A stretch of 44,252 bases of DNA, taken from the NCBI GenBank assembly GCA_016212465.1, contig JACRGE010000020.1, positions 1 through 44,252 of the forward strand. The letters are read 5' to 3'. The translations under genes were made by a program, and so were the position numbers. This DNA comes from Microcaldota archaeon (GTDB lineage: Archaea > Micrarchaeota > Micrarchaeia > Norongarragalinales > JACRGE01). Under the pieces are notes generated by a model. It was not told the origin of the DNA and made no database searches. It saw nothing but the letters and a program-made list of their open reading frames with translations. Shown one piece after another: positions 1,579-2,605 of this stretch (its first letter is position 1; every line of letters starts with the position of its first letter).

Positions 1579-2097
1579 ATGACCCGGAAACGAGCGCCCC
1601 CCTTGATTTTTTTAGAATCATATATTGATGAAATAGCGGGCAAGCGCGGGGTAAAAATCGTTGAATGTATTGGTGATGGTGCAACAGACGAACGAATTGA
1701 ACAAAAAACCAGCATAAAGATTGCTGAAATCCGGTCAATCCTCAACCACCTGCACAGTTATGGAATTGTTGATTATGTAAGGGAAAAAAACCTTTCTAGT
1801 GGATGGTTTACGTATACTTGGCGCCTTTGCCTTGATCGGGCTTTGCAAAACCTATTGCTTGTGAAAAAAAGGGAATACGAGCGATTAAAAAATAAATTGG
1901 ATTTTGGGGTGGGTTACAATATATACTGCTGCAAAAAAGGCTGTATGGAAATTGAATTTGATGCGGCAATGGAGAATAGATTCCGTTGCATGAAGTGTGG
2001 CGGGGTTTTGACACAAATAGATCGACAAGTGGAAATGAAGGAGTTGGAAGAAAAGATAAACATCATCGAAAAGATAATTAACAACAAAACATACTAG
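1579..2097 (+). CDS. tfe: Transcription initiation factor E subunit alpha (TFE)
   Basis: N-terminal winged helix, C-terminal zinc ribbon (CCKKGC...CMKCGG) and terminal helix; TFE architecture. Confidence 0.8.
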   Translation: MTRKRAPPLIFLESYIDEIAGKRGVKIVECIGDGATDERIEQKTSIKIAEIRSILNHLHSYGIVDYVREKNLSSGWFTYTWRLCLDRALQNLLLVKKREYERLKNKLDFGVGYNIYCCKKGCMEIEFDAAMENRFRCMKCGGVLTQIDRQVEMKELEEKINIIEKIINNKTY

Positions 2098-2106
2098 TTA
2101 TTGTTT

Positions 2107-2213
2107 AGCGGGGTAGGGTAGCTAGGAGTGCCCGCTGGGCTCATAACCCGGAGACCGGTGGTTCAAAGATTCGGCTTTTAATAAGCTCATTGTTGAGAGT
2201 CCACCCCCCGCTA
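2107..2213 (+). tRNA. Initiator tRNA-Met (CAT) with a 32-nt intron in the T-loop (position 59/60)
   Basis: AGCGGGG/CCCCGCT acceptor with A1:U72, anticodon stem CTGGG-CTCATAA-CCCGG with three G:C pairs, T stem GGTGG/CCACC. T-loop TTCAAA[2168-2199]T gives TTCAAAT when spliced. Confidence 0.9.
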
Positions 2214-2284: not shown

Positions 2285-2605
2285 TTATGTTGTGGGTTTT
2301 CTGTACCTATATGAATATGGTAGGGGCTTTTCTGGCTCAGCTTCCACTTCCTCCGTTGGTTGACTCTGTACTGAAGGAGAGATTATCACAATTTTTTCAA
2401 CTGCCTTTACACTTTTGTACATGATTGTTTTTTCCCTGAAAATCCTTTTCGCTTCATCCTTGCTTGCTACCTTGATTGGCTCTAGTGTAAGTCTAATGAT
2501 TTCTCCCTTCTGCAGGTCCAGTATGACATCATAGATTTTTCCTATATACTGTGCGTTATCAGTATAAACATCCATTCCAAGCAATTGTGAGATTCTTGTA
2601 GCCAT
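2285..2605 (-). CDS. PRC-barrel domain protein
   Basis: MATRISQLLGMDVYTDNAQYIGKIYDVILDLQKGEIIRLTLEP pattern. Confidence 0.7.
   Translation of the reverse strand: MATRISQLLGMDVYTDNAQYIGKIYDVILDLQKGEIIRLTLEPIKVASKDEAKRIFREKTIMYKSVKAVEKIVIISPSVQSQPTEEVEAEPEKPLPYSYRYRKPTT

Follow-up and report, generated by a model that had tools for sequence, protein, structure and literature searches.

The gene at positions 2107–2213 of the window (the whole 44,252-nt stretch of micrarchaeal DNA that was analysed) is very probably an initiator tRNA-Met gene whose T-loop is interrupted between positions 59 and 60 by a 32-nt intron, which would be removed by protein splicing of the EndA type. Read from the sequence, the tRNA-Met(CAU) gene lies on the forward strand and consists of two exons and one 32-nt insert (Table 1); CCA is not encoded. 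Its cloverleaf is composed of the acceptor stem AGCGGGG/CCCCGCT, the D stem GGGT/GCCC, the anticodon stem CTGGG/CCCGG with the loop CTCATAA, the T stem GGTGG/CCACC and the discriminator A. The initial annotation had recognized an archaeal initiator, and this identity was confirmed, as the CAU anticodon, the A1:U72 pair, the GGG/CCC pairs of the anticodon stem and the T stem are all present. Without the insert a tRNA of 75 nt remains, whose layout is identical to that of the intronless initiators found at the same locus in relatives. The insert is thus identified as an intron both by its absence from intronless orthologues and by the exact restoration of a 7-nt T-loop.

Table 1. Features of the initiator locus (window coordinates) and 59/60 motifs in other tRNA genes of the host
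Feature	Position	Strand	Details
Transcription factor E (TFIIE alpha) gene	1579–2097	+	Pfam PF02002, 6.5e-14; conserved upstream neighbour of the initiator in relatives
Exon 1, initiator tRNA-Met(CAU)	2107–2167	+	61 nt, mature positions 1–59; anticodon CAT at 2142–2144
Central splice helix, exon side TTCA (positions 54–57)	2162–2165	+	pairs with TGAG 2194–2197, 4 bp
5′ splice site region AA↓G	2166–2168	+	bulge/internal loop; no strong intron helix closing it
Intron, T-loop position 59/60	2168–2199	+	32 nt; missing from relatives' orthologues; six further genomes carry a different insert there
Central helix, intron side TGAG (2194–2197), followed by 3-nt bulge AG↓T	2194–2200	+	3′ splice site after 2199
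Exon 2	2200–2213	+	14 nt, mature positions 60–73: T60, T-stem CCACC, acceptor CCCCGCT, discriminator A73
PRC-barrel protein gene	2285–2605	-	Pfam PF05239; conserved downstream neighbour in many relatives
Strict 59/60 motif	tRNA-Thr(UGU) on C97; tRNA-Ala(UGC) on C77; tRNA-Arg(GCG) on C19		
Strict 59/60 motif	one tRNA on C92, one tRNA on C75		
Possible 59/60 motif	C28, C69		register uncertain

Initiator exons were found in 53 of 60 related genomes searched, with a single initiator match in most of them. Exon 1 of the window gene is 93–98% identical to the initiators of most relatives from the same order, and transcription factor E (TFE) was matched by tblastn at the majority of the initiator loci examined, with the PRC-barrel gene often adjoining as well. 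As the TFE gene stands beside the initiator in most relatives, the loci with and without an intron can be regarded as orthologous. Thirty initiator loci, including that of the window, were read individually. Eighteen are intronless and have the T-loop TTCAAAT, the initiators of relatives at the same locus reading GGTTCAAATCC without any insert. Four loci (the window gene, G007, G016 and G030) carry an insert at exactly 59/60, seven (L034, L037, L039, L040, L042, L043 and L045) have one near position 8/9, between the acceptor and the D stem, and a single one (G011) is interrupted in the variable region. In about eight further genomes, judged from match coordinates only, the initiator match is broken elsewhere, in several of them in the anticodon stem.

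A survey of 303 class genomes, which detects introns only up to about 40 nt, added G117 and G144 as carriers of an initiator intron at 59/60. Both of these initiators (L211 and L216, respectively) apparently contain two introns each, an insert on the D-arm side or at 8/9 in addition to the one at 59/60. Outside the class, a 41-nt insert at 59/60 of the initiator was present in an Aenigmatarchaeote record (L159, JAPLVB010000041.1), which was recovered by a loose pattern scan of contigs where most of the matches listed were normal tRNAs followed by GCTA by chance. The introns at this site measure 17, 18, 30, 32, 32 and 41 nt in G007, G144, G016, G030, G117 and L159, and those of different genomes are unrelated in sequence. 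A pattern search of 81 genomes from the class of a Caldivirga sp. yielded no initiator intron of 11–41 nt at 59/60, the pattern requiring a GG/CC T-stem end, so that other variants would be missed. The 32-nt insert at 59/60, as originally proposed, is therefore well founded, being supported by the empty orthologous sites and by six other genomes with differing inserts there.

ARAGORN found no tRNA in the window. The unspliced gene scored 13.7 bits with the Rfam tRNA model (cut-off 29) and was not called by ARAGORN, which identified the spliced 75-mer as tRNA-Met(CAT). The T arm and acceptor expressed as a pattern, GGTTCRAA-N(11-41)-TCCNNCNNCCGCTA, matched the window once and none of 100 shuffles. 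When the window was mononucleotide-shuffled, a strict motif (perfect T stem, 4-bp central helix, gap 28–36 nt) turned up about 0.1 times per 88.5 kb; in the window it sits exactly between both parts of an initiator tRNA that is otherwise perfect.

The initial annotation had described the splice motif as a bulge-helix-bulge (BHB), with bulges AAG and AGT on the two sides of a 4-bp helix. Folding upheld the helix TTCA/TGAG and the 3′ bulge AGT, while the 5′ bulge AAG was left without a good intron helix. In the folded models of the window gene the 3′ bulge is followed by a helix of 4–5 bp and by an internal loop at the 5′ site, and on the intron side only a weak helix adjoins the 5′ bulge. At 37 °C the BHB-type fold containing the TTCA:TGAG helix reaches -41.7 kcal/mol compared to -41.8 kcal/mol for the best fold; the central helix has a base-pair probability of 0.23–0.30 and a competing intron hairpin is equally stable. 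At 45–60 °C the BHB-type fold is the best fold. In a strict BHB, 4 bp would lie between two 3-nt bulges and a closing helix would flank each bulge; the window gene possesses the 4-bp helix and the 3′ bulge but fails in the intron-side helix by the 5′ bulge. Since the 5′ site is predicted to lie in an internal loop rather than in a well-closed 3-nt bulge, the motif is best called a relaxed bulge-helix-loop, a label that also fits a host with a broad-specificity EndA, by which cleavage is predicted. The G030 initiator, folded without constraints, adopts as its minimum-energy structure a BHB-type motif in which the AAG and AGT bulges recur. Four of six class members (the window, G016, G030 and G144) have TGAA or TGAG as the intron strand of the central helix, and only three of the four central pairs form in two of the five other class members and in the Aenigmatarchaeote.

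The EndA of the host, encoded on contig C24, aligns over its full length to the epsilon2 EndA of ARMAN-2 (4FZ2; E 3.5e-128). It contains two stretches of PF01974 together with PF02778, and Y236, H251, K282 and the ASL lysine K161 of the ARMAN-2 enzyme, whose roles have been described (PMC6379350), all have conserved counterparts in it. With the three-unit architecture, the catalytic Tyr/His/Lys and the ASL lysine all present, the host splicing endonuclease is by homology of the ARMAN-2 type (epsilon2), with a predicted broad specificity. Enzymes of this type have been reported to cut relaxed motifs (PMC6379350; PMC12397907) and to do so at various tRNA positions (PMC4033280). Both splice sites would be displayed in the transcript by the T stem together with the 4-bp TTCA:TGAG helix; a 3-nt bulge (AG↓U) would hold the 3′ site and a less tightly closed loop (AA↓G) the 5′ site. 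The epsilon2-type endonuclease, being tolerant of relaxed motifs, would cut at both, and a tRNA ligase, presumably of the RtcB type, would then join A59 to U60 to give the T-loop UUCAAAU. The cutting, the joining and the timing of both with respect to end processing are points that we infer.

That the insert might instead be retained in the mature tRNA as an extension of the T arm appears highly improbable. Although the unspliced RNA can fold with the acceptor, D, anticodon and T stems intact and the intron as a hairpin, six other genomes have unrelated inserts of variable length at the same nucleotide and most relatives have none. Retention is further disfavoured by an EndA of a type known for relaxed motifs being encoded in the genome, and by the interaction of T-loop and D-loop, as this elbow is required for tRNA function.

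An intact second initiator gene, which would have contradicted the initial annotation, was looked for in the assembly and not found; as the assembly is about 91% complete, its absence from the genome is not fully certain. This leaves some room for the idea that the window gene is a decayed copy and the intact one lies in the missing part, yet no exon position is damaged, the splice helix has been preserved, the gene sits at the conserved TFE-initiator locus of the relatives and most relatives likewise exhibit a single initiator match, which makes decay extremely improbable. A split or permuted arrangement, for which the permuted initiator of Thermofilum pendens with its junction at 59/60 provides a precedent (PMC3218864), has a practically negligible probability and is refuted by the gene order, as both exons lie collinearly on one strand, follow the order of the tRNA and are separated by 32 nt. 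An initiator gene with a cis intron at 59/60 is accordingly the preferred reading.

The lineage is striking in that introns appear to interrupt most of its tRNA genes. Only four tRNAs exceed the Rfam cut-off in the 1.2-Mb host genome, compared to 10–46 matches in most of 59 other genomes searched, one other genome also having only four. Four members of the class (G028, G033, G021 and G040) have only 4–9 Rfam-detectable tRNAs and possibly possess the same kind of disrupted tRNA set. Among the host tRNA candidates that were read, sampled by pattern and family searches, most have one to three introns, situated in the anticodon, D or T arms. The strict 59/60 motif recurs in at least five other host tRNA genes with the same layout as in the initiator intron. 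Many of the host tRNA inserts have a palindromic core, TTTTCTTTTGTAAAAGAAAA, in common, which occurs at about 20 places in the genome and is absent from the 32-nt initiator intron. Because this core is shared by so many inserts and places, it suggests a spreading sequence family, or intron transposition.

Two further loci are of note here. The tRNA-Lys(CUU) gene at 984–1196 of the window (reverse strand) has a T arm into which about 150 nt are inserted, apparently as two introns, one of which carries a palindromic TTTTCTTGTAAGAAAAG core; it was missed by ARAGORN and, with 25.7 bits, remained under the Rfam cut-off. On contig C24, an intron plus 3′ exon copy of the tRNA-Arg(GCG) of C19 (L174) is located at about 960–1050 of locus L002; this stray 3′ half with its intron stands directly behind a tRNA-Lys(UUU) gene whose own T arm is intact.

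For the lineage as a whole we tentatively propose, at slightly less than even chances, that 59/60 is a preferred target of spreading palindrome-containing introns, which would have reached a large part of the tRNAs, the only initiator among them, that translation start would hence depend on relaxed-motif splicing by epsilon2 enzymes, and that introns of the initiator locus were gained independently at several sites (about 8/9, anticodon stem, variable loop and 59/60) across related species. As the initiator is essential and apparently single-copy, an intron in its T-loop would make every translation start dependent on splicing. Since the same locus is intronless or has introns at other sites in related species, it offers a natural series for studying the gain and loss of introns, and also their match to a broad-specificity endonuclease. 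Moreover, ARAGORN and Rfam miss the initiator gene and most of the host tRNAs, so that tRNA numbers given for archaea of this kind may be incorrect.

The initial annotation had referred to noncanonical introns mainly of Thermoproteales and had known of no case in this initiator position. The host is a micrarchaeon and not a member of the Thermoproteales, and the novelty of the position is weaker than had been stated, as 59/60 is a listed archaeal tRNA intron site (PMC4090602) and the permuted tRNA-iMet(CAU) gene of T. pendens has its junction there (PMC3218864). The literature text searched contained no description of an initiator gene that is collinear and interrupted by an intron at 59/60, which is weak evidence as key papers lie outside it. 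The initiator intron is thus a well-supported further case at a known site, in an unusually intron-rich lineage.

Compared to the noncanonical 59/60 introns already listed (PMC4090602), the site and the kind of splice motif are the same, the motif of the window gene being relaxed on its 5′ side. In T. pendens, too, the T arm contains a BHB motif through which the initiator halves are joined at position 59/60; that gene is, however, circularly permuted, contains an extra intron at 37/38 and encodes CCA, whereas the window gene is collinear, carries a single cis intron of 32 nt and lacks CCA (PMC3218864). ARMAN-1 and ARMAN-2, with their multi-intron tRNAs and epsilon2 EndA, represent the same kind of lineage with a close EndA homologue (PMC4033280; PMC6379350; PMC12397907), and for epsilon2 enzymes the cutting of BHL/hBH introns in several parts of the tRNA has been reported; the likeness is set at the level of lineage and enzyme. 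In the present genome only four tRNAs are Rfam-detectable. In the Asgard groups Atabeyarchaeia and Freyarchaeia, 92–95% of the tRNAs contain introns, so that there, as apparently here, nearly all tRNA genes are interrupted, often at noncanonical sites, albeit in an unrelated lineage (PMC11291895).
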